A stretch of 64,000 bases of DNA from Bacillota bacterium (GTDB lineage Bacteria; Bacillota; Clostridia; Peptostreptococcales; Anaerovoracaceae): positions 1-64,000 of the forward strand of contig JAFPXY010000016.1 in the NCBI GenBank assembly GCA_017394515.1. The letters are read 5' to 3'. The first letter of the stretch is position 1, and each line of letters begins with the position of its first letter. Positions 2,896-16,428 of the stretch are shown piece after piece. The notes beneath the pieces are model-generated. The model saw only the letters and a list, made by a program, of their open reading frames with translations, was not told the origin of the DNA and ran no database searches. The position numbers and the translations under genes were made by a program.

Positions 2896-3822
2896 TCAGT
2901 GCCATTTGATGAACTTTCTCTGTATGATTCCCACTATGCTGCCCAATATGGTGACAACCACACCTATAACGATTATTCCTGCTACAGCGTGGGTGTAGTT
3001 GGCGTATACTATGCTGTTCTGGATGTAGTAACCCATTCCGTGGGTGGCGCCCATGAGCTCTGCGAAGTTCAGCATGAGTACCGAAGTGGTCATGGTCACC
3101 TTAAGGCTGTTCAGAATGCCCGGCACCAGGTAAGGCAAAAGAATCCTGAAGAGCATAACCGGTTGGCTTAGCTTCATTATCCTGGCAGAATCAAGTATTT
3201 CAGGCTCCACCGAGGCTATCCTGTTGATTATTCCCAGGAACTGAGGCCAGAATACTCCCAATATGACGACCACTAAAGATGCGCTTCTGAAGGTGGGCAT
3301 TATGGCCACCAGATAAGGCGAAATGACGATGGCGGGTATGGGAGCCATGACGTTTGCTATGGGATAGCTGAAGGCCTTCAATCTCTCATTCCAGCCGAAG
3401 ACCAGTCCGAGGATCACAGCAGCACCTAAGCCAAGAGCCATGCCTCCTATGAGCAGTCTCAGTGAATAGGAGATGTTAAGGAGCATGACCTTCCACTGGT
3501 CTACGAAAGTATAAAATACATTTTCAGGGGCAGGTACCAGTACGGGATGAGCAAGGTCCATGACGGAAGTGCAGATCTCCCATATGATCATCAGTATCCA
3601 CACGAAGGTGATGATGTCCGTAGGACCGGTACCTACGGTGCCTGTCTTTTTGCGGCTTCTCATGGCCATGATGATGAACAGGAGCTCTATCACAGCAATC
3701 CCGATGATTAGCGGCAATGGTCCCTTAAGCAAGGCTTTAGCCTTAGGCGCCAGACATACTACTCCCAGAAGGACTGCAAGCAGCAGATGGGCTATGAGCA
3801 TTCTTATCTTTTCTTTTCTCAT
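2896..3822 (-). CDS. ABC transporter permease, SsuC/TauC/ThiX type
   Basis: This is an inner-membrane permease with a BPD_transp_1-like core, including the typical EAA-loop region near 'EPEILDSARIMKL'. It has roughly eight hydrophobic segments, including an extra N-terminal pair before the core. I place the start at 3822, a frame five codons inside the longest one. The ATG there overlaps the stop of the ATPase gene (ATGA) and has GGAGGT five bases upstream, giving 308 residues. It is the third gene of the importer operon (binding protein, ATPase, permease). Relatives take up taurine, sulfonates, nitrate, thiamine precursors or aromatic acids. The substrate here is unknown. Confidence 0.85.
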   Translation of the reverse strand: MRKEKIRMLIAHLLLAVLLGVVCLAPKAKALLKGPLPLIIGIAVIELLFIIMAMRSRKKTGTVGTGPTDIITFVWILMIIWEICTSVMDLAHPVLVPAPENVFYTFVDQWKVMLLNISYSLRLLIGGMALGLGAAVILGLVFGWNERLKAFSYPIANVMAPIPAIVISPYLVAIMPTFRSASLVVVILGVFWPQFLGIINRIASVEPEILDSARIMKLSQPVMLFRILLPYLVPGILNSLKVTMTTSVLMLNFAELMGATHGMGYYIQNSIVYANYTHAVAGIIVIGVVVTILGSIVGIIQRKFIKWH

Positions 3823-4619
3823 GCCGGACCTCCACATCTGCAGGCCTTGCCCGAGTCTCCTGTGTCATTTAGCATGATCTCCGACAGTTTGAGTCTGAGT
3901 TCCTTCATGGTCTTCTCTTCCTCAAGGGACATGATGACCCTGGGCCTTCTCAAGGGTACTGAGATCTCGTTTATGATCCTGCCGTGATCCATGACGATGA
4001 TCCGGTCAGCCATCCTCACAGCTTCACCGATATCATGAGTCACGAAAACTGCAGTCCTCGCCCTGTCCTTGTCCGAGCGCCACAGATCCTCCAAAAGATT
4101 CTGCAGCTCGCCTCTTATCTTAGAATCCAAGGCGCCGAAGGGCTCATCCAGGAGCAAAATATCCCTGTCCATGGCTAATGCTCTCGCTATGGCTACCCTC
4201 TGGCGCATACCTCCGGACATCTGGTACGGATGCTTATTCGCTGCATCCTCCATCCCGACCTTTTCCAATAGTTCACGGGCGATCCTGTCTTCATCCTCTT
4301 TATCAAGACCTTTTCTGGTATGCTTTAGGGTGAAGCGGATATTTTTGTATGCCGTCATCCAGGGGAAGAGTGCATAGTCCTGAAAGACTATGGCTATATC
4401 ATCCCCGGGGCCATCCATGGGCTTTCCGTCGATTAGAAGGTTCCCTTCCGTGGGAAAGCTCAGCCCTGCAAGAAGCCTCAGGAGAGTCGTCTTACCGCAT
4501 CCTGATGGGCCTACGATACATACGAACTCCCCTCTTTTTATCTCCAGGGAAATGGAATCCAGAGCCTTGGTATTGAGATCATCTGAGTATGAAAATCCGA
4601 TATTTTCCAGTTTGATCAA
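3819..4619 (-). CDS. ABC transporter ATP-binding protein, SsuB/TauB/NrtD type
   Basis: This 266-residue ATPase has a complete set of motifs: Walker A GPSGCGKTT (about 38-46), Q-loop, signature MSGGMRQR, Walker B DILLLDEPFGALD and the H-loop THD. It starts with TTG, placed seven bases after GGAGG. It lies 27 bases after the binding-protein gene and overlaps the permease by four bases. It would drive the importer made by its two neighbours. An odd Cys/Gly-rich end (CRCGGPA) is not usual for the family; it may be only a tail, or a metal- or thiol-sensitive element. Confidence 0.9.
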   Translation of the reverse strand: MIKLENIGFSYSDDLNTKALDSISLEIKRGEFVCIVGPSGCGKTTLLRLLAGLSFPTEGNLLIDGKPMDGPGDDIAIVFQDYALFPWMTAYKNIRFTLKHTRKGLDKEDEDRIARELLEKVGMEDAANKHPYQMSGGMRQRVAIARALAMDRDILLLDEPFGALDSKIRGELQNLLEDLWRSDKDRARTAVFVTHDIGEAVRMADRIIVMDHGRIINEISVPLRRPRVIMSLEEEKTMKELRLKLSEIMLNDTGDSGKACRCGGPA

Positions 4620-4646
4620 TTTACTGCCTCCGGGATGTTTTGCGCA

Positions 4647-5771
4647 TTAAAGGGTATCGTGCTCATCAAAGTAAGCCTTAAGTTCTCCCCAAAGGGCGTT
4701 GTCAGGCTCTCTCTCAGCGAGGATAGCCAGTGCGTCCGAATAAATGTCAGTCACCACGTACTGTGACCAGTCTATGTCAAGAGTATTGTCGATCTGTCCG
4801 ATATTCCCCATGGCTTCGTAGAACTTGATGCAAGCATCCTTGTCGGGATCCAGTGATAATCTCATTACTGGCTTATAAGTGTCAGTTCCGTATACCTGAG
4901 CCTTAAGGAAATCACGATCCTGCTCAGCATAAGCTTCCAGAATATCGAGGGTCTCTTCCTGATTGTTCAAATAGAAATCATATCCTCTGAGTGCTGCTGT
5001 CTCGAATCTGACCAAGGCTTCCCTGTTGTTTTCATAGGTGCCCTGATTGCAGGTCTGTCTGCAGCAAGGATAGGTCTCCACATAGTCTTTGACTGATCCG
5101 ATGAGCTCCACACCCAGTTTATCGGCGTAGTATCCCAGACACTGATTGGTGATGCAAAGGTCATATTCGCCCTTGACAACGCCTTCCACGGCGGTATTTC
5201 CGTCTTCCACATAGACGAAGGTCACATCACAATCTTCATCCTCTCCGCCGATGGTATAGCCCTTCTCGATGAGGTAGTTCTTGAGCACCATCTGGCCTGT
5301 CTCAGGCATCTGGCAAGCTATGGTCTTTCCAAGGAGCGCTTCGTCGGAATCCAGGGTGATGCCAGAGCCCGGAGCTGCCATGATCTCAGATCCTTCAGCT
5401 GCTGTTCCTCCGAATACTCTAAGAGTTGTGGTTCCCTGACTGATAAAGGTCGCAGCTGCTGTTGAGCTGAAAAGATACACATCAAGGTCTCCGGTGGATA
5501 CAGCCATATATGCGTCGTTCATGCCGGATACCTTTTCGAATTCTACTTCTACTCCCTCTTCTTCAAAAAATCCTTTAGCTTCAGCTACTATGACTCCCAC
5601 GGGCTTGATGGCAGTTCCCATCATACCTACCTTGAGAGGCAGTACCTCTGTCTGTTCGGGTTCATTCTGTGGCTCTTCCTGAGAACCGCTGTCCTGTCCG
5701 CATCCTATCATGGCAAAGACCATGGCGATGACCATAATAAGCGCAAAAAATTTCTTAGCATTTTTCATCAT
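4647..5771 (-). CDS. ABC transporter substrate-binding lipoprotein, NMT1/SsuA-like
   Basis: The product is a lipoprotein: a hydrophobic signal ends in the lipobox MIGC with the modified Cys at residue 24. The mature part has the type of fold that binds sulfonates, nitrate or thiamine precursors (PLKVGMMGTAIKP start, later PCCRQTC). I chose the ATG at 5771 because GAGAGGGA lies just upstream; an extra in-frame ATG lies directly after it. It is first in the importer operon and sits behind a promoter with palindromic operators, downstream of the PadR gene. Likely partners are the ATPase and permease that follow. The ligand is not predictable; an input molecule for the neighbouring corrinoid pathway is a reasonable guess. 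Confidence 0.85.
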   Translation of the reverse strand: MMKNAKKFFALIMVIAMVFAMIGCGQDSGSQEEPQNEPEQTEVLPLKVGMMGTAIKPVGVIVAEAKGFFEEEGVEVEFEKVSGMNDAYMAVSTGDLDVYLFSSTAAATFISQGTTTLRVFGGTAAEGSEIMAAPGSGITLDSDEALLGKTIACQMPETGQMVLKNYLIEKGYTIGGEDEDCDVTFVYVEDGNTAVEGVVKGEYDLCITNQCLGYYADKLGVELIGSVKDYVETYPCCRQTCNQGTYENNREALVRFETAALRGYDFYLNNQEETLDILEAYAEQDRDFLKAQVYGTDTYKPVMRLSLDPDKDACIKFYEAMGNIGQIDNTLDIDWSQYVVTDIYSDALAILAEREPDNALWGELKAYFDEHDTL

Positions 5772-5802
5772 AATTCCCTCTCTCTCTTTTTTAATATATG
5801 TC

Positions 5803-5883
5803 ATTAGACTTAGTCTAATAGTGCGGCAATATTATAGGCTAAGCCCAATCACCATGGGAGAAAGTAATTAGACTTAGTCTAAT
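5803..5883 (-). promoter_or_regulatory. Two perfect palindromic operators and a degenerate third, around a -10 box
   Basis: The 17-bp perfect palindrome ATTAGACTTAGTCTAAT occurs at 5803-5819 and again at 5867-5883. A degenerate version (centre near 5841) lies between them. Centres are about 30 and 34 bases apart, close to three helical turns. A TATAAT for the minus strand (5831-5836) sits in the middle; no good -35 box is evident. The array lies between the PadR gene and the ABC importer, so PadR is the obvious candidate ligand-responsive repressor. Confidence 0.75.
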
Positions 5884-5912: not shown

Positions 5913-6290
5913 TTATTTCTTTTCTAAAGCGTCTTCGATCTCGGTGACGAGACCGATGATGTCGACGGAATACTGTCCCAGGACCACCGCCCAACTTGCC
6001 AGGCATCTTCTTCCTTCAGCCGTAACCGAATAGAACTTTTTAGGTCTTTCCCCGGGGGCTTCAGACTTCATCTCTGAGCTGAGCTGTCCATCAGCTTCCA
6101 TCTTTTTAAGGTAGCGATAGACCCCCGTAGGATCCGGGCTATGTCCTATGAACATATTCTTTTTTTCTAGTTCATTGATGATCTCAAGACCGTACATGGG
6201 TCTTTCAGAAAGGATCACCAATATATGAGGCTGGATGAATTTATCCAGATTCCCTCCCCTGCATGAGCAGGTCATATCATAGGTTTTCAT
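5913..6290 (-). CDS. PadR-family transcriptional regulator
   Basis: This 125-residue protein has a PadR-type winged helix (FIQPHILVILSERPMYGLEI, then TGVYRYLKKMEADG, then the wing with KKFYSVTAEGRR). It ends in a short C-terminal helix for dimerisation. The N-terminus carries a CSC pair (residues 8-10), and another Cys lies in the ending of the winged helix, so a metal or thiol signal is possible. Its ATG overlaps the end of the CobW-type gene by four bases, making it the last gene of the corrinoid operon. Immediately downstream are two identical palindromes in front of the ABC importer. I infer that it represses the importer, and perhaps its own operon. Confidence 0.85.
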   Translation of the reverse strand: MKTYDMTCSCRGGNLDKFIQPHILVILSERPMYGLEIINELEKKNMFIGHSPDPTGVYRYLKKMEADGQLSSEMKSEAPGERPKKFYSVTAEGRRCLASWAVVLGQYSVDIIGLVTEIEDALEKK

Positions 6291-7204
6291 AGAGAAATGC
6301 TTCCTTTGATATTTTTTGCCATAGAGGCTATAACTACACTCACCAGTCTTATTCCTACAGATGAAATAAGAACCACCTTAGCTTCCTTTATCTCCTTCTC
6401 CCAAGGCTCGATGGAAAGGTTTTCTCCAACGCAGTCAAGCTTAACTCCGCCTTGATCCGTATGTAGGAAACCTTTGATCCTGTAAGTGGATCCCGCGATA
6501 TCCTCGATGAAGGGAAGAAGTTCTTCCATGGGAACGGTCTTCTTCTCTTTCAGAACCATGGTCTGAGGTCTGCTTTCAAAGGTATTGGTAGTCTCCTCTG
6601 CCCTATCGCTCAAACCGGAAGGGCTTTCCGTAGCCTTCACCAGATCGAAATTGCAGTAGCTTGCACTGATCACGGCCGCCTCAGGATTGATCTCATGGAT
6701 AGTGTTTCTGATGTCCGTCTCCGTTTCCTTGGTTATCAGGTCAGTCTTGTTGATAATGATGATATCGCTGAAAAACACCTGATGTCTCAAAGATTCCAGT
6801 ACATCAATGAGATCCATGAAGTTGGTGCCATCCACTATGCAAAAGGCGTGGGTGTAATCATATTTATTGACCAGGTGCTTATCTATACCGGCCAAAATAT
6901 CCACCATGTTGGCAGGATCTGCCAGACCGGAAGCCTCAATGAAAAGATACTCCAGATCTTTCTTGGACAGTTCCACCAAAGCTTCCACGAACTGATCCTT
7001 AAGGCAGGCGCAAAAAATCGAGCCATTGGACAGTTCTGCCATCTGTACGCCCTTTGTATCCACGATCTCTGAATCGATGGAGATGGCTCCGAACTCATTG
7101 ATGAGTATGCCGATCTTATGGTCGGCATACTCATCTATTAATTTTTGAAGTAAGGTAGTCTTACCGGATCCTAAGAATCCGGTAAGCATTATGAGTTTTA
7201 TCAT
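6287..7204 (-). CDS. CobW/COG0523-family GTPase (putative metallochaperone)
   Basis: The 305-residue P-loop GTPase has Walker A GFLGSGKTT near the N-terminus, the CxC form of the family's metal motif (FCACLK, canonical CxCC), IEASGLADP as switch/Walker B and NKTD for guanine specificity. A shorter C-terminal domain follows. Family members insert or deliver metals (cobalt, zinc, nickel). The gene overlaps the UroD-type methyltransferase by one base (TAATG) and the PadR gene by four. Its place between a corrinoid-protein operon and a regulator suggests metal or corrinoid servicing of the neighbouring methyltransferases, such as zinc loading, but this is inference. Confidence 0.85.
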   Translation of the reverse strand: MIKLIMLTGFLGSGKTTLLQKLIDEYADHKIGILINEFGAISIDSEIVDTKGVQMAELSNGSIFCACLKDQFVEALVELSKKDLEYLFIEASGLADPANMVDILAGIDKHLVNKYDYTHAFCIVDGTNFMDLIDVLESLRHQVFFSDIIIINKTDLITKETETDIRNTIHEINPEAAVISASYCNFDLVKATESPSGLSDRAEETTNTFESRPQTMVLKEKKTVPMEELLPFIEDIAGSTYRIKGFLHTDQGGVKLDCVGENLSIEPWEKEIKEAKVVLISSVGIRLVSVVIASMAKNIKGSISL

Positions 7205-8568
7205 TATTTTACGTATTCTTTGATAGCTGCGATCAACTCTTCCTTGGAAGGAATGATGGAGATGAATCTCTGCTCACCATTGATGGTCATGGTAGGAAGA
7301 TTCTTCATACCCATCTTGACGTATCTGGGAATGTCTTCCTTGACGCAATACTTGTAAACTCTGTATTCAGCGTAATCCTTGATTTCATCGTAGATGTCCT
7401 CAACGGCAGCTCTCATGTAGAAGCAAGCAGCGCACTGGTCGGGATCCAGCAGGAAGAGTTCAACGATGACCTTGTCAGAGTTAGCATAGTCAGGAATCTC
7501 AACGTTGGATGTGTCAATGACGGTCTCATAGTTCTTGATGAGCTCTCTGGTGGAATCCAGATGCTTAACAGCCTGAGCGCAAGCTATGGTATTCTCGATA
7601 GGAGTGTCATAAGGCATGTCGCAGCCGGGGCTGATGATGAAGTTTCCATCGGATACTTCGCGCACGGAATCGATGAGGTCCACAACGCACTTCATGTTGT
7701 CTTCCTGATTACCGAAAAGCATGGTGGTGGTAAGAGGAATGTTTCCTCCAAGGGTGATATTGAACTTGTCGGTAACTTCCTTAGCCTTAGGCATATCTAC
7801 GTTCTCGTCGATGGATACGCCGTCAGGTCCCATCTCGCACATAACTTCGATCTGCTTGGTAGCGTTTCCGCATACGAAGAATGAAGAGAATGCTCCACGA
7901 GCTCTGATGTAATCGAATACTGCCTTGAAAGGCTCAGATAAGAGTTTTTTGATCATCTTAGGTGAGATCTGGGATACCAGAGGGTCTACCACAGCGATGA
8001 CGTCCATACCTGCATCAATATACATTCTGGACATTTCGATGGCAACCTTAGCGCAGTATCCTACGAGAGCCTTGGTGTACTCAGGATCTGTAACCATATC
8101 CATAAAGATCTCTGTACCTCTTAAGTGAGATGCCAGTGTGAAAGGTCCGCAGATAAGGCCATAGAGAGCTGTATCTTCGCCTACGGCTTCTTTAACTCTT
8201 CTCATGGCGTTCAGGATCATAGGGATTCTGCCGCTTTCCTCTGTAGGGATCTTGCAGTCACAAGGGATCTCCTTGTTAGGGCCTTCCCAAGGATGTGACT
8301 TAACTGAAGGCGGATTGTCCTTTGCCCACTTCAGTTCGCAGCCGATGATTTCAGCTTCTACCTGAAGGTCGAACATGATGGGCATACCATCAGGAATGTA
8401 AAGTTTGTGAACTTCCAGAAGGGATTCAACAAGTTTGTCCTCGTCAGTCAGGAGTTCCTGAGCGGTGTAGCCCTTGAGTTTGCCTGCGTGTACGCCTGCG
8501 AAAGGTACCCAAGGAATGTCATCTGTCTTTTCGTGTCTTAAGGTCTTAAAAATTAATTCTTTTCCCAT
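7204..8568 (-). CDS. UroD/MtaA-family corrinoid methyltransferase fused to a thioredoxin-like domain
   Basis: Residues 1 to about 345 match the uroporphyrinogen-decarboxylase superfamily branch of methylcorrinoid methyltransferases (MtaA, MtbA, CmuA). It has the VCGN stretch (C233) and a later SPGCD (C316), which correspond to zinc-binding positions. The His normally two residues before the first Cys appears to be Phe231. From about residue 367 a second domain follows with CAAC (379-382) and a typical thioredoxin/glutaredoxin pattern including NLPTMTINGE. The fusion makes it longer (454) than usual family members. It lies in an operon after the corrinoid protein and before the CobW-type GTPase. 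It probably moves a methyl group between the corrinoid protein and an acceptor such as folate or a thiol; the redox domain may keep the zinc site or cobalt partner active. Confidence 0.8.
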   Translation of the reverse strand: MGKELIFKTLRHEKTDDIPWVPFAGVHAGKLKGYTAQELLTDEDKLVESLLEVHKLYIPDGMPIMFDLQVEAEIIGCELKWAKDNPPSVKSHPWEGPNKEIPCDCKIPTEESGRIPMILNAMRRVKEAVGEDTALYGLICGPFTLASHLRGTEIFMDMVTDPEYTKALVGYCAKVAIEMSRMYIDAGMDVIAVVDPLVSQISPKMIKKLLSEPFKAVFDYIRARGAFSSFFVCGNATKQIEVMCEMGPDGVSIDENVDMPKAKEVTDKFNITLGGNIPLTTTMLFGNQEDNMKCVVDLIDSVREVSDGNFIISPGCDMPYDTPIENTIACAQAVKHLDSTRELIKNYETVIDTSNVEIPDYANSDKVIVELFLLDPDQCAACFYMRAAVEDIYDEIKDYAEYRVYKYCVKEDIPRYVKMGMKNLPTMTINGEQRFISIIPSKEELIAAIKEYVK

Positions 8569-8700
8569 ATTCTTTTACCTTTTCTTAATATTTTGCATTA
8601 ACTTTATTAACTGATAATATTAATTATTCATAGCCTAACATAATAATTTTACTACAAAACGGTCTCTTATTGGATAGCAAAAAATCCAATTATCTTGTTC

Positions 8701-9387
8701 TTATTCTGAACCGTTTTGCTTTTTTCTTTGGATAAGCTCCAAAGCCTTCTCCACCGCTTCGCTGGCGGTCTCTGAGTATCCATCAGCTCCAATCTTCTCC
8801 GCCCAGCGCTGGGTGCATGGCGCGCCGCCTACCATGGTGATGTATCTGTCCCTCTCGCCTATATCTCTCAAGTACTTCTCAAGTTTCTTCTGCTCCTTAA
8901 GGGAGGCCGTGAGGAGTGCACTGGTGCCTATGATGTCCACGTTGAACTCTCTGGCAGCCAAAGCGATGGCTTCTACCGAGACCTCACATCCCAGATCGAT
9001 GACTTCAAAGCCCGCATTTCTAAGGAAAGCGGCCACTATGGTCTTACCGATATCGTGGATGTCTCCGGAAACCGTAGCAAGGAGCACGCGTATCTTGCCC
9101 GTAGCCACAGGTCCGGGAGTGTCATTGAGGCCAAGGCGCTTAAAGATCTCGTCTGTCACTTCCTTCATGGTATCCGACGCATACAAAAGTTCAGCCACGG
9201 TGATCTCGCCCCTGTCAAAGCGATCCATGATCTCCTGGTTACCCTTGCCGAAGCCCTCCATCAAAAGATCCATCAGATCCATGCCCTCTTCCGAAGCCTG
9301 ATCCATGATCTGAAGAGCCTCTTCGTCGTCTCCTTCAATTATCGATAATCTTGCTCTTTCTAAAATGTCAGCTTGCTCTGCACTCAT
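8701..9387 (-). CDS. Corrinoid (B12)-binding methyltransferase protein, MtbC/MttC-like
   Basis: The 228-residue protein has an N-terminal four-helix cap (about 5-90) and a Rossmann-like B12-binding domain. The base-off motif is DIHDIG (D109, H111, G114), followed by TSALLTAS and GGAP. This is the methyl-carrying subunit of three-part methyltransferases. It is the first gene of the operon with the UroD-type enzyme, and it is divergent from the PocR-AraC regulator. The MttB-family enzyme at 12511-14010 is a natural methyl donor partner. A 132-base gap, AT-rich and with a weak hairpin (ATTGGAT/ATCCAAT near 8669-8690), separates it from the next gene. Confidence 0.9.
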   Translation of the reverse strand: MSAEQADILERARLSIIEGDDEEALQIMDQASEEGMDLMDLLMEGFGKGNQEIMDRFDRGEITVAELLYASDTMKEVTDEIFKRLGLNDTPGPVATGKIRVLLATVSGDIHDIGKTIVAAFLRNAGFEVIDLGCEVSVEAIALAAREFNVDIIGTSALLTASLKEQKKLEKYLRDIGERDRYITMVGGAPCTQRWAEKIGADGYSETASEAVEKALELIQRKKQNGSE

Positions 9388-9416
9388 TTCTTTTACCTAA
9401 ACTTGATCAACTTGCT

Positions 9417-9444
9417 TTTATACTATTTTAGCATAAAAATACAA
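9417..9444 (-). promoter_or_regulatory. Possible promoter of the corrinoid operon
   Basis: On minus, TTGTAT (9439-9444) and TATAAA (9417-9422) are 16 bases apart, a short leader away from the corrinoid-protein gene. It is a moderate match. It lies back to back with the regulator's promoter, so a regulator bound between them could act on both. Confidence 0.4.
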
Positions 9445-9460
9445 CTGTTCATAATATTTT

Positions 9461-9488
9461 TTGACCTTTACCCAAAATATGATATAAT
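9461..9488 (+). promoter_or_regulatory. Sigma-A-type promoter of the AraC/PocR gene
   Basis: TTGACC (9461-9466) and TATAAT (9483-9488) are 16 bases apart on plus, about 40-50 bases before the regulator's start. Confidence 0.75.
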
Positions 9489-9536
9489 AAATCTAATAAT
9501 AGTTATATTTTATATGAATATTTAAAGGTAATGAGC

Positions 9537-10820
9537 ATGGCAGACAATATTTTTATTCATCTGCTCCGATCCGCAGAAGTGGCCGAGCGACTTGAGTCAT
9601 CCATAAATGCCTTCAGCAGAATAACCGGTGTACCCGTCACATATTACGATGGCGACGGAAGCATAACCCGGGAATGGTCTTCTGATAGAAAAATCTGTAA
9701 CAAATTCCAGATCTATTCCAAACAGAACAGCAAATGCAGAAGTCTTCTCAGCTTTGCAGGGAGCTTTTCGTCGGGTCTTGGGGAGCCCTATATATTCTTT
9801 TGCAGGGCTGGCCTGTCAAACATGGCCTTCCCTCTGGTCATCAAGGGAACTCCTGTGGGCTACTTCATCGCAGGTCCCTTCGTAATGAAAAAACTTAAGA
9901 GCGGAAGCATATCGAATTTCGTAAAGATGAACTCCATAGACGACAAAGAACTCTCGGATATCTTATCTTTTGCAGATTCCCTGCCCGTCTTCAGCACCGA
10001 TGGCATCTCCGACCTGTCCATACTTTTCTACAACTCCGTGGTGCCCGTCTTGAAATCATCTGCCGACTATCAGACCGCCAAGAAGAATTTCTCTGACCAG
10101 ATAACCTTAGGTGAAATGATCAGAAAGAGCAAGCGCGACCGTCTCTCCTCCACCTTCCCCACGGAACTCACGGAGGATCTCATCAACGCCATTATCTCCG
10201 GCAAAACCATTCAGGCAGAGAAGATCTCCTCTCAGATACTGGAGAGGCTCTACGTCATCTGTGTCGGAGATCTGGACGAGATCAAGACCATGGCTCTTTG
10301 GATCACTGCTACCATCATCAAAAACTTCTCCGAAGAAGCCAGGTTCAATTTCGGCGAATTCGATGAGATGGACATGGATATCATAAACAGGATAAACGAA
10401 GCTTCCACCACCGATGAGCTGTCGGAGACCTTCCGTTCTCTGACAAAGCGCATATCCGTGGATCTGGTCTCCTCTATCTATCCGGGAGCATCTCCTCTGA
10501 TCGCCCGCAGCTTAAGATACATCAAAAGCAACTTTACTCACAAGATCAAACTGAGCGATATAGCTTCAGAACTTCACGTGAATCCTTCGTATTTTTCGGC
10601 ATTGTTCAGTCAGGAAATGGGAAGATCCTTTACAGACTACATTCTGGAACTGAGGATCAATAAAGCTCAGAATCTACTTAAGACCACCAATATGGATCTG
10701 GTGGACGTGGCTGCTTCTTCAGGCTTCGAAAACCAGAGTTACTTCACCAAAATATTCAGGAAGAGCACAGGCCTCACGCCCAGGCACTACCGACAGAATT
10801 ACATGATAGATGATAAATAA
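9537..10820 (+). CDS. AraC-family regulator with PocR sensor domain
   Basis: The N-terminal part (about 5-170) is a PocR ligand-binding domain with a Cys-containing core (KICNKFQ, KCRSLL, FFCRAGL, then GYFIAGPF). The C-terminal 100 residues are two AraC-type helix-turn-helix units (SDIASELHVNPSYFSALF; VDVAASSGFENQSYFTKIF). I place the start at 9537 rather than 9531 because AAAGGT at 9523-9529 is too close to the earlier ATG. It is divergent from the corrinoid operon and convergent with the MttB-NhaC operon. PocR domains respond to small molecules in B12-dependent and C1 pathways, so it is the likely activator of both sides. It ends at a shared terminator. Confidence 0.85.
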   Translation: MADNIFIHLLRSAEVAERLESSINAFSRITGVPVTYYDGDGSITREWSSDRKICNKFQIYSKQNSKCRSLLSFAGSFSSGLGEPYIFFCRAGLSNMAFPLVIKGTPVGYFIAGPFVMKKLKSGSISNFVKMNSIDDKELSDILSFADSLPVFSTDGISDLSILFYNSVVPVLKSSADYQTAKKNFSDQITLGEMIRKSKRDRLSSTFPTELTEDLINAIISGKTIQAEKISSQILERLYVICVGDLDEIKTMALWITATIIKNFSEEARFNFGEFDEMDMDIINRINEASTTDELSETFRSLTKRISVDLVSSIYPGASPLIARSLRYIKSNFTHKIKLSDIASELHVNPSYFSALFSQEMGRSFTDYILELRINKAQNLLKTTNMDLVDVAASSGFENQSYFTKIFRKSTGLTPRHYRQNYMIDDK

Positions 10821-10827
10821 GACAGCA

Positions 10828-10860
10828 AAAGAGGAGCGACCGGTTCGCTCCTCTTTATTA
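10828..10860. terminator. Bidirectional terminator between regulator and NhaC copy 2
   Basis: AAAGAGGAGCGA and TCGCTCCTCTTT (10828-10839 and 10845-10856) form a 12-bp perfect stem with a five-base loop. The plus strand ends in a T-rich tail; it can also serve the converging minus transcript. Confidence 0.8.
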
Positions 10861-10916
10861 ATTACGAAAGTATTAATACCAAAGTGTGTTTCGTTCAGAT
10901 CTGATTTCTTTAAAGA

Positions 10917-12380
10917 TTAAGCTTCTAATTCTTTTCTCATTGCTTCTGCTTCAGCTTCTCTTGCCTCGATCATCTTGTTGTATTCCTCATCGGTCATCTT
11001 TTCCATGGTGAATCCGGTGAAGCCGTAGATGACGGATACGATCGGGTTGATGTAGTTCAGAACTGCATACTTAGCATATGCCTGAGTAGGCTGTCCTAAG
11101 AAACCGGTCATGGTAGCACCGCATACGTTCCAAGGAATGAGCGGTGATGTAAGAGTTGCCGAGTCTTCCAAGCACCTCGAGAGATTCTTTGCTTTGAGTC
11201 TCCTGTCTTCGAAAGCCTGTCTGTACATTCTGCCGGGAAGGATGATTGCCAGATACTGGTCAGCAGTAAGAAGGTTCATGAAGATGCAGGTGCAGATGGT
11301 AACGAGAACCAGAAGACCTGTTGTCTTGGCAACCTTCAGGATGCCTTCTACGATCTGTCCCAGCATTCCGGTAACTTCCAGAACTCCTGCGAAGGACATG
11401 GAGCAAAGTACGATGGATACCGTCCACAGCATTCCATCGAAGCCACCGCCTCCGACTACATCTCCTACCGTGTAATCATCGGAAAGAGGAATGTCTCCGG
11501 AGATGGATTCATATCCATAGTGCATGATGTTGAAGAAATCAACGAAGTGGATGTGCTGTACTACTCCCATGCAGAAGAGACCCATGATTACGCTGAAGAA
11601 CAGTGCGGGCAGTGCAGGGATCTTAAGGATTACAGCGATAAGAAGGATGAGTACAGGGAGCATCAGGAGCGGGCTTACTGTGAACTCGTTCTGAATAGCT
11701 TCCTGAAGGATGTCCTTCATTTCCATCTGAACTTCACCGCTGGGAGCAGCTCCTCTTCCGAGGATGAAGAATACTACCAGAGCGATGATGTAGGAAGGTG
11801 TTACGGTATAGATCATGTGACGAACATGTTCAAATACGTTGGAACCAGCAACACCGGGAGCCAGGTTGGTTGTATCGGACATAGGGGACATCTTGTCTCC
11901 GAAGTATGATCCGGATACTACAGCACCAGCTGTCATAGCGGGGTCAACGCCAAGACCGATGGAGATACCGATCATGGCTACTCCAATGGTTCCTGCTGTG
12001 GTGTAGGAGGAACCGATAACAAGTGATACGATGGAGCAAAGCAGACAAGCTGTTACCAGGAAGATGGAAGGATTAAGAATATTCAGTCCATAGTAGATCA
12101 TGGAAGGAATGATTCCGCCGGCCTTCCAAGTGGATACCAGCATACCTACTGTAAGCAGGATGAGGTTTGCCTGCATGGAGCGGTTGATACCTGCGATCAT
12201 ACCCTTTTCCATAACGTTCCACTTCCAACCATTGAGAGCGGCAACGACACATACAAGAGCGGATGACAGGACCAAAGGCATATGGGCTTCACCATAGGAT
12301 TTGAAGATGGAGTACATGATGATTCCCAGTGTGAATACTACGCAGATAAGAATCTGCCACATTGGAATTTTTTTACCCAT
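10917..12380 (-). CDS. NhaC-family Na+/H+ antiporter-type transporter (copy 2)
   Basis: The 487-residue membrane protein has the family motif GDKMSPMSDTTNL, homologous to copy 1 but clearly diverged. It has about 12 hydrophobic segments and a charged C-terminal tail (MIEAREAEAEAMRKELEA). It follows the MttB-family gene by 130 bases on the same strand, so it is a good candidate to move the methylated substrate or its product. The start is unusual. No ribosome site is adjacent; AAGGAG lies about 32 bases upstream, with a short inverted repeat (12391-12410) in between that could fold out and bring the site near. No alternative start codon exists in the open frame between them. Confidence 0.85.
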   Translation of the reverse strand: MGKKIPMWQILICVVFTLGIIMYSIFKSYGEAHMPLVLSSALVCVVAALNGWKWNVMEKGMIAGINRSMQANLILLTVGMLVSTWKAGGIIPSMIYYGLNILNPSIFLVTACLLCSIVSLVIGSSYTTAGTIGVAMIGISIGLGVDPAMTAGAVVSGSYFGDKMSPMSDTTNLAPGVAGSNVFEHVRHMIYTVTPSYIIALVVFFILGRGAAPSGEVQMEMKDILQEAIQNEFTVSPLLMLPVLILLIAVILKIPALPALFFSVIMGLFCMGVVQHIHFVDFFNIMHYGYESISGDIPLSDDYTVGDVVGGGGFDGMLWTVSIVLCSMSFAGVLEVTGMLGQIVEGILKVAKTTGLLVLVTICTCIFMNLLTADQYLAIILPGRMYRQAFEDRRLKAKNLSRCLEDSATLTSPLIPWNVCGATMTGFLGQPTQAYAKYAVLNYINPIVSVIYGFTGFTMEKMTDEEYNKMIEAREAEAEAMRKELEA

Positions 12381-12390
12381 TGTTGAAATT

Positions 12391-12417
12391 GTACGGGATA
12401 AATCCTGTACGTCTCCT
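12391..12417 (-). promoter_or_regulatory. Distant ribosome site with intervening hairpin before NhaC copy 2
   Basis: On minus, GGAG (about 12413-12416) is followed by the 20-base inverted repeat GTACAGGAT/ATCCCGTAC with one mismatch (12391-12410), then ten bases, then ATG. Folding the hairpin leaves about 12 bases of effective spacing. Confidence 0.45.
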
Positions 12418-12510
12418 TTCTCAAATAAAACGAATAATAACGAATAAATGATTCACTTTCGTAATCTCTTTATTTATTTAGGCTTGAGCCTACATAAAAC
12501 GGTTTAAAAT

Positions 12511-14010
12511 TTAAGCTTCATCATACTTCTTGATGAGGTCTCTTGCAACCTCTTCAGAGAGTCCTGCGTCAGCGCAGACCTCGATGAAGGCTTCGTCCAG
12601 TCTTGCTCTCTGCTCCTCGGTCATGGGGCAGATCACCTTGTCTCTTAAGCTATCCACATAGTCTCTGGCTCTGTCCATGATGCTCGGAGAGCCTTCCTTC
12701 TCCCAGATAGCCCTCTCCTCATAGTTAAAGGTGATGTTAGAGTAGTTCTGTTCTTTCTTGTAATTCTTCAGGGTGTGCTTCTTACCCATGAAGCTTCCGG
12801 CGGGACCGACTTCGATCAAAAGATCCCCGGCCAGAGTGTTATCATCGAATCTCATGCCATTCTCAAGGAATTTGAGGGTGCCGATGAAATCGTTATCGAT
12901 GACCAGCTTCTCAATGCTCATCTCCGCGATGACGTTGAGACCTCCAGGACCGGATACGTTATCGAAGCCTGCAGATAAGGCCATGAGACCGGATCTGGCT
13001 GTCTCTGAACCTGCCTGATAGTCCACAACTTTAGCATCTGACATGGCTGCATAGGTGTGGATGGGAAGTCCGTAGTACTTACCCATCTGAGCGTAGCCCA
13101 TGGTGATCATGCTGCATTCCATGGCCTCCATAGGAGTATACATGGTCTTCATGTTGAAGATGCAGGGTGCTCCTCCGTAAACCGTAGGGAATCCGGGCTT
13201 AAGCACCTGAATGAGTACCAGACCGCTCAGCATCTCTACCGTATGCTCCAGAAGAGCTCCGGCCAGAGTAACAGGGCCTGTAGCACCTGCGATCTGAGCA
13301 GAGATCATCTCGATGGGGATATCGTATTTGACACAGTCCACCACGTTTCTGGCGCCTATACCGGACCATTTAAAGGGTGAAGTGATGCAGATATCGAAGA
13401 TGGTATAAGGTTTGGTCCTTACCGCTTCCTCAGAACCGAGAACCGCCTTTAAAAGCTTAAAGGTTCTGGGAACTCCTTCCACATCTGTGGAGCCGCCGAT
13501 GATGGGCTTGATGGAGTTCTGCATCTCAGTATAGTAGAGATACTGGGAACCCAGCTCGCCTGGTGCTTCTTCGCAGACAACGGAAGAAGAAACGAAATCA
13601 ATGTGAGGCAGGCTCTGAGCTACCTTGGTGAGAAGCTTCAGGTCTCTCACAGCTGATAATCTAGCCGTATGGTTGTCGGGTTCGAGAACATTTGATGAAC
13701 TGGAACCCGGGTTGAATCTGGTCTTGCCATCGCCGAAGGTGCAGTAGTAATCGCCGTTTCTGTCGTAGAGATCGAAGGTCTTAGGAGCGCTTTCGATGCA
13801 CTTGTTCACCAGTTCAGGCGGGAAGTAAACCTTCTTAGTTTCTTCATCGACACGGCAGCCCGCATTCTTCAAGGCTTCTCTGGCTTCAGGATAATCAAAG
13901 ATTATTCCCATGTTCTCTAAAACTCTGAGAGCTTCTTCATGGACTTTCTTTACCTGTTCTTCAGTCAGCACCTTGATTCCGGGGCTATTGTCATAGACAA
14001 ATTTACTCAT
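12511..14010 (-). CDS. MttB-family (trimethylamine methyltransferase-like) methyltransferase, non-pyrrolysine
   Basis: This is a 499-residue protein of the MttB superfamily. It has the family N-terminus (EEQVKKVHEEALRVLENMG), the GSSSSNV stretch and the glycine-rich C-terminal barrel region (FDNVSGPGGLN). The frame runs without any in-frame UAG, so it is of the non-pyrrolysine type. Characterised members of that type demethylate quaternary amines such as glycine betaine, proline betaine or carnitine, passing the methyl to a corrinoid protein. The corrinoid protein at 8701-9387 is the nearest partner. A terminator separates it from the redox genes upstream, and an NhaC transporter follows. The substrate cannot be read from sequence. 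Confidence 0.88.
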   Translation of the reverse strand: MSKFVYDNSPGIKVLTEEQVKKVHEEALRVLENMGIIFDYPEAREALKNAGCRVDEETKKVYFPPELVNKCIESAPKTFDLYDRNGDYYCTFGDGKTRFNPGSSSSNVLEPDNHTARLSAVRDLKLLTKVAQSLPHIDFVSSSVVCEEAPGELGSQYLYYTEMQNSIKPIIGGSTDVEGVPRTFKLLKAVLGSEEAVRTKPYTIFDICITSPFKWSGIGARNVVDCVKYDIPIEMISAQIAGATGPVTLAGALLEHTVEMLSGLVLIQVLKPGFPTVYGGAPCIFNMKTMYTPMEAMECSMITMGYAQMGKYYGLPIHTYAAMSDAKVVDYQAGSETARSGLMALSAGFDNVSGPGGLNVIAEMSIEKLVIDNDFIGTLKFLENGMRFDDNTLAGDLLIEVGPAGSFMGKKHTLKNYKKEQNYSNITFNYEERAIWEKEGSPSIMDRARDYVDSLRDKVICPMTEEQRARLDEAFIEVCADAGLSEEVARDLIKKYDEA

Positions 14011-14168: not shown

Positions 14169-14705
14169 TTATTTCTCTACGGGCTTCAGAATTCCATCAA
14201 CGATCATTCTGGCTACGATCTCGGTGCAGAATGAAACGGCGGTAGCGCAGTGATGAGTTCCAAAGTGCTCCATATATCCCTGGTCTCCTTCAGGAGTCTT
14301 CCAGTCATAGGCTTCTCCCATGTTGTGTGCCAGCACGTCTCTGCAAAGAATGCTGCCATACTCTTTTTTGAAAGTCTCGATGACGTCTCTTACCATGGCG
14401 TGGCCTTCTTCATAATTGCCGCCCAGATCGGAGAGTGGTCTGCCCTTAGCTACGGAGATTACCCAAGCTGCTCCGTTAAGAGCTCCGCAGGTGCCATCCA
14501 GACAGCAGCCGCAGCCGCCGGCCAGTCCGAAGCTTGCTCTGATCATATCTTCAGTGATGCCAAAATCAGGGAATGCCCTGTAGATTCCGTGCAAAGTACT
14601 CTGAATGCAGTTTCCGTAAAGTGTCTCAGTGGAGTATCCCACGTTCTTAGCCTTAACTACTAAAGCTTCCTTCATTTCCGGTGTGAGTTTGGAATAATCA
14701 GTCAT
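14169..14705 (-). CDS. C_GCAxxG_C_C family redox protein
   Basis: The 178-residue protein has the family's cysteine pattern: NCIQST near residue 33, then GGCGCCLDGTCGALNGA, LCRD, and HHCATAV. These many cysteines suggest a redox or metal-binding role, yet no member has a firmly known reaction. It has an AGGAGA ribosome site and lies 22 bases after the CoA-disulfide-reductase/rhodanese gene, followed by a terminator, so the two form a unit. A partner role in sulfur or thiol electron transfer is inferred from this pairing. Confidence 0.85.
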   Translation of the reverse strand: MTDYSKLTPEMKEALVVKAKNVGYSTETLYGNCIQSTLHGIYRAFPDFGITEDMIRASFGLAGGCGCCLDGTCGALNGAAWVISVAKGRPLSDLGGNYEEGHAMVRDVIETFKKEYGSILCRDVLAHNMGEAYDWKTPEGDQGYMEHFGTHHCATAVSFCTEIVARMIVDGILKPVEK

Positions 14706-14727: not shown

Positions 14728-16428
14728 TCAGTTGAAGTTATAATTATCTACGATGGGTTCTCTTCCCAGAGTCTTGTCATTGAAGTACTCATAGAGACTG
14801 ATTCCCAGGAAGGATCCCTGAATATTGACCACGTTATCGAAGCCCCTGCCCTTCAAGGCGCATAAGCAGTAATATGATCTCTGAGATGATCTGCAGTGAA
14901 GGTATACCGGTCTGTCCTTAGGTATCTCGCGGAGTCTCTGTCTGATCTCGGACTGAGGGATGTTGTGTGCGCCCTTGATGTGCCCGATCTCAAACTCGTT
15001 CTCTTCTCTAACGTCGATTATATAGGCTCCGGATTCAACCAGTTCTCTCACATCTCTTAAGTGTACCTGCTTGATATCTCCGTTCATGACATTGAGTCCA
15101 ACGAGAGCTGCGAAGTTTACCACATCTTTAGCTGTGGAGAAGAGCGGAGCATAGCAGAGCTCCAGCTCCTTCAGGTCTTCCAGGGTAGCGCCCATGGTGA
15201 TCATGGCTGCGATAACATCCACTCTCTTATCAGCCTCGCCCTTACCGATGGCCTGAGCTCCCAGGATCCTGCCGCTGGGTTTCTCGAAGATGAGCTTGAA
15301 TCCCATGTAGTTTGCATTGGGCATGATACCAACCTTGTCTGAAGGGAAGATGATCACATAGTCATAGTCGATTCCTTCCTTCTGGCAGGCCTTCTCGTTT
15401 AAACCGGTAGCTGCAGCGTTAAGTCCAAAGACTCTGATGCAGCATGAACCGATGAAGCCCTTCATGTGGTTTTCTCTGCCGTACATGTGATCAGCTGCTG
15501 CTCTGGCCTGCCTCTGTGCGGGGCCTGCCATGGCGAGTCTTCCGGGCTTGCCCGTGAAGAAGTTGGGCTGCTCTACGGCATCTCCCACAGCATAGATATC
15601 GGGATCCGATGTCTGCATGTAGTGATTTACCTTGATGCCTCCGGTCACACCGATCTCAAGGCCACAAGCCTTGGCCAGGTCTGTTTCGGGCTTGACACCT
15701 ATGGCGACTACCACGTTGTCAGTTTCGATCTCAAAGGTCTCTCCATCGTGCTCTACCACGATGCTGTCGCTCTTTATTTCCTTAAGGAGGGTGCTCAAAT
15801 AGAGCTTCACTCCGTTATCATCCATCTCCTTGTGAAGCATCTGTACCATGTCGTAGTCGAAGGGCTGAAGAATCTGATCCAGACCTTCTACCAAAGTGAC
15901 TTCCTGACCTGCTTTAGCCAGGTTCTCAGCCACTTCGATACCTACGAAGCCACCGCCGATAACGGCTGTCTTCTTACCTTTGCCGGAGGTAATGGCATTC
16001 TTGATCCTGACTACGTCATTAACAGTCCTTACGGAAAATACGTTATCCCCAAAGATTCCCTTGATGGAAGCCGGCATGATGGGACTTGCACCGGGGCTTA
16101 ATACCAGTTTGTCATAGGGTTCTTTGTATTCCTCTCCCGTGTTCAGGTTGATCACTGAGACTTCCTTCTTCTCACGGTCGATGGCTGTTACTTCTCTTCT
16201 TACTCTTACGTCTATATCATGGCTCTTCCTGAAGGATTCAGGAGTCATCATAATGAGGGATCTGTCATCCTGTACAACACCGCCAAGATAGTATGGCAGT
16301 GAGCAGTTGGAATATGACACATAGTCCCCTCTGTCAAATACTACGATCTCGGCGGAAGGATCAAGCCTTCTGACTCTGGCTGCTGCTGAAGCGCCTCCGG
16401 CTACTCCTCCGACAACTACTAATTTCAT
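14728..16428 (-). CDS. CoA-disulfide reductase-type flavoprotein fused to a rhodanese domain
   Basis: The protein has 566 residues. Residues 1 to about 445 are a pyridine-nucleotide-disulfide oxidoreductase with two dinucleotide motifs (GGVAGGASAAARVRR; VIGGGFVGIEVAENL) and the single redox Cys (C42, in NCSLPYYLGG) typical of CoA-disulfide reductases. From about 460 a rhodanese domain follows with its active-site loop HCRSSQRS (C512). Such fusions reduce CoA persulfides, polysulfides or disulfides with NAD(P)H. AAGGAGG precedes ATG. It is the first gene of a two-gene unit with the Cys-rich protein. It may keep thiols or sulfur species reduced for the oxygen-sensitive corrinoid system, which is inference. 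Confidence 0.88.
   Translation of the reverse strand: MKLVVVGGVAGGASAAARVRRLDPSAEIVVFDRGDYVSYSNCSLPYYLGGVVQDDRSLIMMTPESFRKSHDIDVRVRREVTAIDREKKEVSVINLNTGEEYKEPYDKLVLSPGASPIMPASIKGIFGDNVFSVRTVNDVVRIKNAITSGKGKKTAVIGGGFVGIEVAENLAKAGQEVTLVEGLDQILQPFDYDMVQMLHKEMDDNGVKLYLSTLLKEIKSDSIVVEHDGETFEIETDNVVVAIGVKPETDLAKACGLEIGVTGGIKVNHYMQTSDPDIYAVGDAVEQPNFFTGKPGRLAMAGPAQRQARAAADHMYGRENHMKGFIGSCCIRVFGLNAAATGLNEKACQKEGIDYDYVIIFPSDKVGIMPNANYMGFKLIFEKPSGRILGAQAIGKGEADKRVDVIAAMITMGATLEDLKELELCYAPLFSTAKDVVNFAALVGLNVMNGDIKQVHLRDVRELVESGAYIIDVREENEFEIGHIKGAHNIPQSEIRQRLREIPKDRPVYLHCRSSQRSYYCLCALKGRGFDNVVNIQGSFLGISLYEYFNDKTLGREPIVDNYNFN

Follow-up and report, generated by a model that had tools for sequence, protein, structure and literature searches.

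MtaA and MtbA, the methylcobamide:coenzyme M (CoM) methyltransferases of methanogens, belong to a class of enzymes that methylate zinc-bound thiols. Here, we describe a bacterial protein that resembles them, in which a UroD-family, MtaA-like barrel is fused to a thioredoxin domain (UroD-Trx). It is encoded in a 64,000-nucleotide stretch (the window, G000:C52:1-64000) of an Anaerovoracaceae metagenome-assembled genome (MAG; 2.14 Mb, 64 contigs, 94% complete), together with a pyrrolysine (Pyl)-independent MttB-superfamily methyltransferase, a corrinoid protein and a CobW GTPase. Much like MtaA and MtbA, UroD-Trx is predicted to have the fold of 4ay8, aligns with both conserved cysteines of MtaA, partners the corrinoid proteins of methylamine first methyltransferases (MT1s) and has a CobW neighbour, as is known for MtaA: COG0523 (CobW) subfamily 13 has been linked to the Zn-dependent MtaA/MtaB (PMC2770081). 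Unlike the methanogen enzymes, it carries a fused thioredoxin domain, has FxC in place of HxC, falls under the TIGR01463 cut-off and is bacterial. On balance, we lean toward the region being part of a methylated-amine demethylation system in which UroD-Trx passes the methyl group to a non-folate, most likely thiol, acceptor, and in our best reading it is the missing second methyltransferase (MT2) of bacterial methylamine metabolism.

Three further systems invite comparison. The MttB of the window shares PF06253 and the lack of Pyl with MtgB, MtpB, MtcB, MtyB and MthB, and presumably also works with a corrinoid protein; it differs from these non-Pyl enzymes in that its partner is an NhaC-family transporter rather than BCCT or EamA (PMC12155760) and in that a PF00809 search found no tetrahydrofolate (H4folate) methyltransferase in its genome. 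The Type 1 mlp clusters of anaerobes described by Kountz and Balskus (PMC10418091), as far as the available part of that report goes, likewise combine UroD-superfamily methyltransferases, a corrinoid protein and an activase, with the folate methyltransferase absent from the cluster, whereas they hold several Mlps each; in the available part of its main text, MttB and CobW are not mentioned and thioredoxin is named in a reference only. Finally, bacterial Pyl-dependent trimethylamine (TMA) genes share a cluster with UroD-Trx in Emergencia, and the second methyltransferase there would be UroD-Trx.

The UroD-thioredoxin fusion

The UroD protein exceeds MtaA in length, and its residues 376-451 constitute a thioredoxin domain (TIGR00411; the PDB thioredoxin 1fo5 also matches). 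The CxxC motif of this domain (CAAC) and a later Leu-Pro are invariant in 81/81 UroD-Trx sequences, with which a second alignment of 52 of these agrees; by thioredoxin convention, we take the Leu-Pro to be the cis-Pro site. Equally constant (81/81) are C233 and C316, and the MtaA cysteines to which they align are presumably zinc ligands. In an AlphaFold2 model with a mean predicted local distance difference score (pLDDT) of 92, the predicted template modelling score (pTM) of 0.88 suggests a fixed arrangement of the UroD and thioredoxin domains. The best solved match of the predicted barrel is MtaA (4ay8; Z 42.1, root-mean-square deviation 1.8, 325 residues, 24% identity), while uroporphyrinogen decarboxylases score lower (Z about 36). 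Against TIGR01463 the protein reaches 153.7, under the cut-off of 235.4. Its nearest records are from MAGs of Firmicutes, including one recovered from buffalo abomasum, and literature searches for UroD or MtaA with thioredoxin and CobW returned no report of the fusion. The original prediction, made from the window alone, had named a UroD-type second methyltransferase without seeing that it is a thioredoxin fusion in a genome with no detectable folate methyl route.

The genome encodes two other UroD proteins (C12 and C30), with no amine methyltransferase linkage in the stretches read. A short, MtaA-related UroD-family protein (~280 aa) is found at L176:12541-13380, L177, L180 and L181 and in this genome at C30 (L183:8080-8940); in Emergencia, its gene has a racemase gene on either side, and here it adjoins the gene of a hydrolase that looks to be of the fumarylacetoacetase type.

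Among 51 UroD-Trx loci flanked by at least 6 kb on either side, CobW occurs within 10 kb in 46, RACo in 38, a corrinoid protein in 37 and any amine MT1 in 34; with CobW so regular a neighbour, chance does not account for the grouping. PadR is near in 15/80 loci, and homologs of the TauA-like (NMT1/SsuA-type) binding protein adjoin UroD-Trx in six (L011, L031, L057, L060, L064 and L088). Many loci adjoin clusters with Pyl MttB, MtbB or MtmB, the methyltransferases for TMA, dimethylamine (DMA) and monomethylamine (MMA). With three amine MT1 types beside it, UroD-Trx is common to several MT1s, and the corrinoid protein/UroD-Trx/CobW block looks like a shared methyl-acceptor module. In Emergencia timonensis SN18, a single cluster runs from non-Pyl MttB and NhaC through radical SAM and C_GCAxxG_C_C genes, PocR, MttC, Pyl MttB and Pyl MtbB to the corrinoid protein, UroD-Trx, RACo, pyl genes, CobW, PylSn and PadR. 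A close relative (L012/G130) has UroD-Trx-CobW-PadR against a Pyl TMA/DMA cluster and MttB-NhaC on another contig, and in Desulfosporosinus, UroD-Trx-CobW adjoins a TAG-split MtmB (assigned from sequence).

The original prediction read the region as one dedicated pathway. MttB-NhaC is detached from UroD-Trx in G111, G036/G127, G088, G125 and G130, a separation of orthologs that the prediction itself had named as speaking against it, and in other loci the neighbours of UroD-Trx-CobW are Pyl genes for TMA, DMA or MMA methyltransferases. The region is thus two modules (MttB-NhaC and corrinoid protein/UroD-Trx/CobW/PadR/ABC transporter), not one pathway. The corrinoid protein groups with those adjoining UroD-Trx in Emergencia. 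A plain assignment as MtbC was rejected: although the clade is confined to neighbours of UroD-Trx, loci with MtbB only use MttC-clade proteins.

Pyl-dependent partners are encoded elsewhere in the genome: two MttB genes with in-frame TAG (C44 and C59), an MtbB gene with TAG, MttC, PylB/C/D/S, tRNA-Pyl with anticodon CUA and, on C44, a RACo-type corrinoid activase, which the original prediction had proposed to seek outside the region (the MtbB, MttC and PylB/C/D labels are assigned from sequence and context). Judged by its genes, the organism has the parts for pyrrolysine use; a genome without Pyl was rejected, given tRNA-Pyl, PylS and TAG-containing MttB and MtbB.

The folate route and the methyl acceptor

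In searches run with positive controls for each profile, the 94% complete genome showed no hits for PF00809 (which MtqA/MtgA, MetH and FolP contain), PF03598 (acetyl-CoA synthase) or PF02219 (methylenetetrahydrofolate reductase, MTHFR). With no pterin-binding methyltransferase, MTHFR or acetyl-CoA synthase detectable, H4folate appears unlikely as the methyl acceptor in this organism, and UroD-Trx is the best MT2 candidate in the genome. The close relatives G129 and G130, which also carry UroD-Trx, have no PF00809 protein either. Among 22 UroD-Trx genomes, these two lack PF00809 and 15, including E. timonensis, have only proteins that we class by size and score as FolP-like (about 270-345 aa, >230 bits) or MetH-like (about 800 aa).

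Within the family sample, UroD-Trx is present in 9/12 Pyl-MttB genomes versus 8/107 others (Fisher p 4.5e-7, phylogeny not corrected; two of the nine are pieces at contig ends). Two Pyl-MttB genomes without it (G058 and G092) have a stand-alone, methyltransferase-sized PF00809 protein instead, and none of the 12 clearly has both; a 375-aa frame in G094 with a weak partial PF00809 match could not be classed.

We envisage the host as an Anaerovoracaceae-type rumen bacterium with methylated-amine demethylation. MttB, with its NhaC partner, would move a methyl group from a quaternary amine to the Co(I) corrinoid protein, which RACo would reactivate; this activase and the TMA and DMA enzymes with Pyl would be supplied from another contig. 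UroD-Trx would take the methyl group off the corrinoid and hand it to an acceptor other than folate. The likeliest acceptor is a zinc-bound thiol, which the fused CxxC domain would either bind or reduce again. CobW would probably load the zinc, PocR and PadR would regulate, and the ABC (ATP-binding cassette) transporter may import substrate or acceptor. We favour a thiol as the acceptor, and a zinc-chaperone role for CobW, because of the chemistry of the MtaA class and the link of COG0523 subfamily 13. Given the changed zinc motif and the CxxC, the fused thioredoxin domain may be what supplies the thiol or reduces it. More tentatively, in bacteria with no folate route the methyl group could pass to a CxxC-tied thiol or sulfide and leave as a methylated sulfur compound or be reduced further, an electron/methyl sink rather than methylotrophy; we regard this as a possibility of low probability. 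CoM import by the SsuA-type ABC transporter was also considered, and its solved relatives are too distant to decide. Bacterial demethylation of TMA or of quaternary amines lowers the amount of TMA, the precursor of trimethylamine N-oxide; UroD-Trx, as one conserved gene present in cultured E. timonensis, is a concrete candidate for the methyl-accepting step. Should a thiol prove to be the acceptor, removing TMA in the gut and rumen would supply methyl-sulfur compounds in place of acetate.

Several observations weigh against UroD-Trx as a thiol-directed MT2. The HxC zinc motif of MtaA is FxC (FVC) in 81/81 sequences, such that the second Cys is kept and the metal site is altered; in 17/51 loci, no amine MT1 lies within 10 kb; and 5/22 UroD-Trx genomes (Eubacterium, Acetobacterium and Desulfosporosinus) have many stand-alone PF00809 proteins. 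In addition, the genome under study is an incomplete MAG, two other genomes of its genus carry neither UroD-Trx nor MttB, and the Pyl-MttB genome G071 has neither UroD-Trx nor a stand-alone PF00809 methyltransferase. As an observation on G071, its one-contig genome holds a complete Pyl TMA/DMA cluster with an activase and a second corrinoid protein (L141, G071:C1:2004000-2023900).

The loss of the His ligand, the loci without an amine MT1, the genomes rich in stand-alone PF00809 proteins and the linkage to ABC transporters would all suit UroD-Trx as a substrate-side MT1, like CdmB or MtvB of the UroD superfamily, for another ABC-imported methylated compound, with MttB using the same corrinoid protein. 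We consider this rather unlikely: UroD-Trx is linked to three different amine MT1 types, MtaA is its closest fold, ahead of UroD proper, and such a role would leave most Pyl-MttB genomes of the family without any MT2. An ordinary quaternary amine:H4folate system, whose folate methyltransferase and MTHFR were missed through MAG incompleteness, is the arrangement used by those characterised bacterial non-Pyl MttB systems that PMC12155760 and PMC8604678 describe; it seems improbable here, as G000, G129 and G130 all lack a PF00809 match, 15 more UroD-Trx genomes have FolP- or MetH-like proteins only, and the genome has no MTHFR or acetyl-CoA synthase matches. A role for UroD-Trx in redox or maturation instead of methyl transfer, such as holding the corrinoid or a zinc site in the reduced state, would fit the invariant CxxC and Leu-Pro and the frequent CobW partner, but is equally doubtful with RACo already present for that task and C233 and C316 of the MtaA-like barrel kept in all sequences.

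MttB and its NhaC partner

The original prediction of corrinoid-dependent methyl transfer involving a non-Pyl MttB is supported: the protein scores far above the PF06253 cut-off of 25 (Table 1), has no in-frame TAG and yields an AlphaFold2 model with pLDDT 92. It has Met at the Pyl position and Ser at the Tyr364 position, residue roles in the pocket being those of PMC9842639. The phylogenetic placement proposed by the prediction was carried out against MtgB and puts MttB in a clade of 13 members (61-97% identity, support 1.0) apart from MtgB (2qne), Pyl-MttB and the other MttBs compared, in a tree whose deep nodes are weak. Throughout this clade, Met or Leu occupies the Pyl position, and Ser is found at the position of Tyr364, where MtgB has His and Pyl-MttB has Tyr. 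The window protein does not group with MtgB, although glycine betaine may still be its substrate as far as the pocket residues go.

The prediction had also noted NhaC in place of BCCT as the partner, and this pairing is conserved. The MttB-NhaC pair recurs in nine relatives, often away from other methyl-transfer genes, and NhaC adjoins every clade member with flanks read; it does not adjoin the 40%-identical L137. The window NhaC exceeds the TIGR00931 cut-off of 370, and no solved relative was found by sequence. NhaC of the pair and NhaC inside other Pyl clusters form two subclades, about 50% identical. In both Emergencia and Anaerovorax, alanine-racemase-like (Alr-like) genes border the pair and an Orr-like gene is near, which hints at an amino-acid-type MttB substrate. 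Trimethyllysine was considered because of these racemase genes and because NhaC relatives include ArcD; it was not adopted, as no racemase lies near MttB-NhaC in the window, G129, G130 or G111. Searches of the literature returned nothing on NhaC together with a TMA methyltransferase, nor on the demethylation of trimethyllysine.

Alr-/Orr-like racemase loci beside MttB-NhaC or NhaC are L176:10490-14514, L136:13262-14410 and L139:17833-18927. An MttB subclade with the motif HSYGTGTDS adjoins two corrinoid proteins, with PocR and UroD-Trx near and an SSS-type transporter in several loci (L044, L049, L056, L057, L058, L059, L061, L062, L064 and L073). A divergent MttB-family protein on C54 of the same genome (L092:9541-10929) has GGGSFETM at the Pyl position and sits in an apparent peptide-transporter/amidohydrolase/peptidase operon with no corrinoid protein near.

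Layout of the region

All genes named by the original prediction are open frames with strong family matches (Table 1); PadR, the C-terminal thioredoxin domain and the ABC transporter (2896-5804) had escaped it. On the minus strand, the order is MttB, NhaC, corrinoid protein, UroD-Trx, CobW, PadR and ABC transporter, with the plus-strand PocR-AraC gene between NhaC and the corrinoid protein. As predicted, the system is split over two transcription units around PocR, which is convergent with NhaC and divergent from the corrinoid-protein gene.

Table 1. Features of the region (window positions)
Feature	Position	Strand	Support
ABC transporter permease	2896..3837	-	profile match
ABC transporter ATPase	3819..4619	-	profile match
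ABC transporter solute-binding lipoprotein, NMT1/SsuA type	4647..5804	-	PF09084 59.2 bits
PadR regulator	5913..6290	-	PF03551
CobW/COG0523 GTPase, proposed zinc chaperone	6287..7204	-	PF02492 148 bits
UroD(MtaA-like)-thioredoxin fusion, proposed second methyltransferase	7204..8568	-	PF01208 188.9 bits + TIGR00411
Corrinoid protein, UroD-Trx-associated clade	8701..9387	-	PF02310/PF02607
PocR-AraC regulator	9531..10820	+	PF10114 + HTH_18
NhaC-family transporter, MttB partner	10917..12380	-	TIGR00931 412.8 bits
Non-Pyl MttB-superfamily methyltransferase (MT1)	12511..14010	-	PF06253 285.7 bits
C_GCAxxG_C_C putative redox protein	14169..14705	-	PF09719 69.5 bits
CoA-disulfide reductase-like protein + rhodanese domain	14728..16428	-	TIGR03385 444 bits (< cut-off 578.8), PF00581

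The CobW gene overlaps its neighbours at both ends, and a promoter-like TTGACC-16-TATAAT (9461-9488) precedes the PocR-AraC gene. The ABC transporter genes are on the same strand as PadR, with no strong terminator in between. Upstream of MttB, a terminator-like site (14155-14124) ends the C_GCAxxG_C_C and CoA-disulfide-reductase-like genes, which may therefore be a separate unit; the C_GCAxxG_C_C gene probably has its own transcription unit. The first 20 kb of the window gave no Rfam match. The prediction had spoken of NhaC transporters in the plural; besides the MttB partner, a second NhaC-like gene lies outside the region at 425-1972 and scores 358.4 against TIGR00931, under the cut-off. It belongs to a group apart from the MttB-linked subclades and is 62% identical to a copy on C12 (L094:2631-4220).
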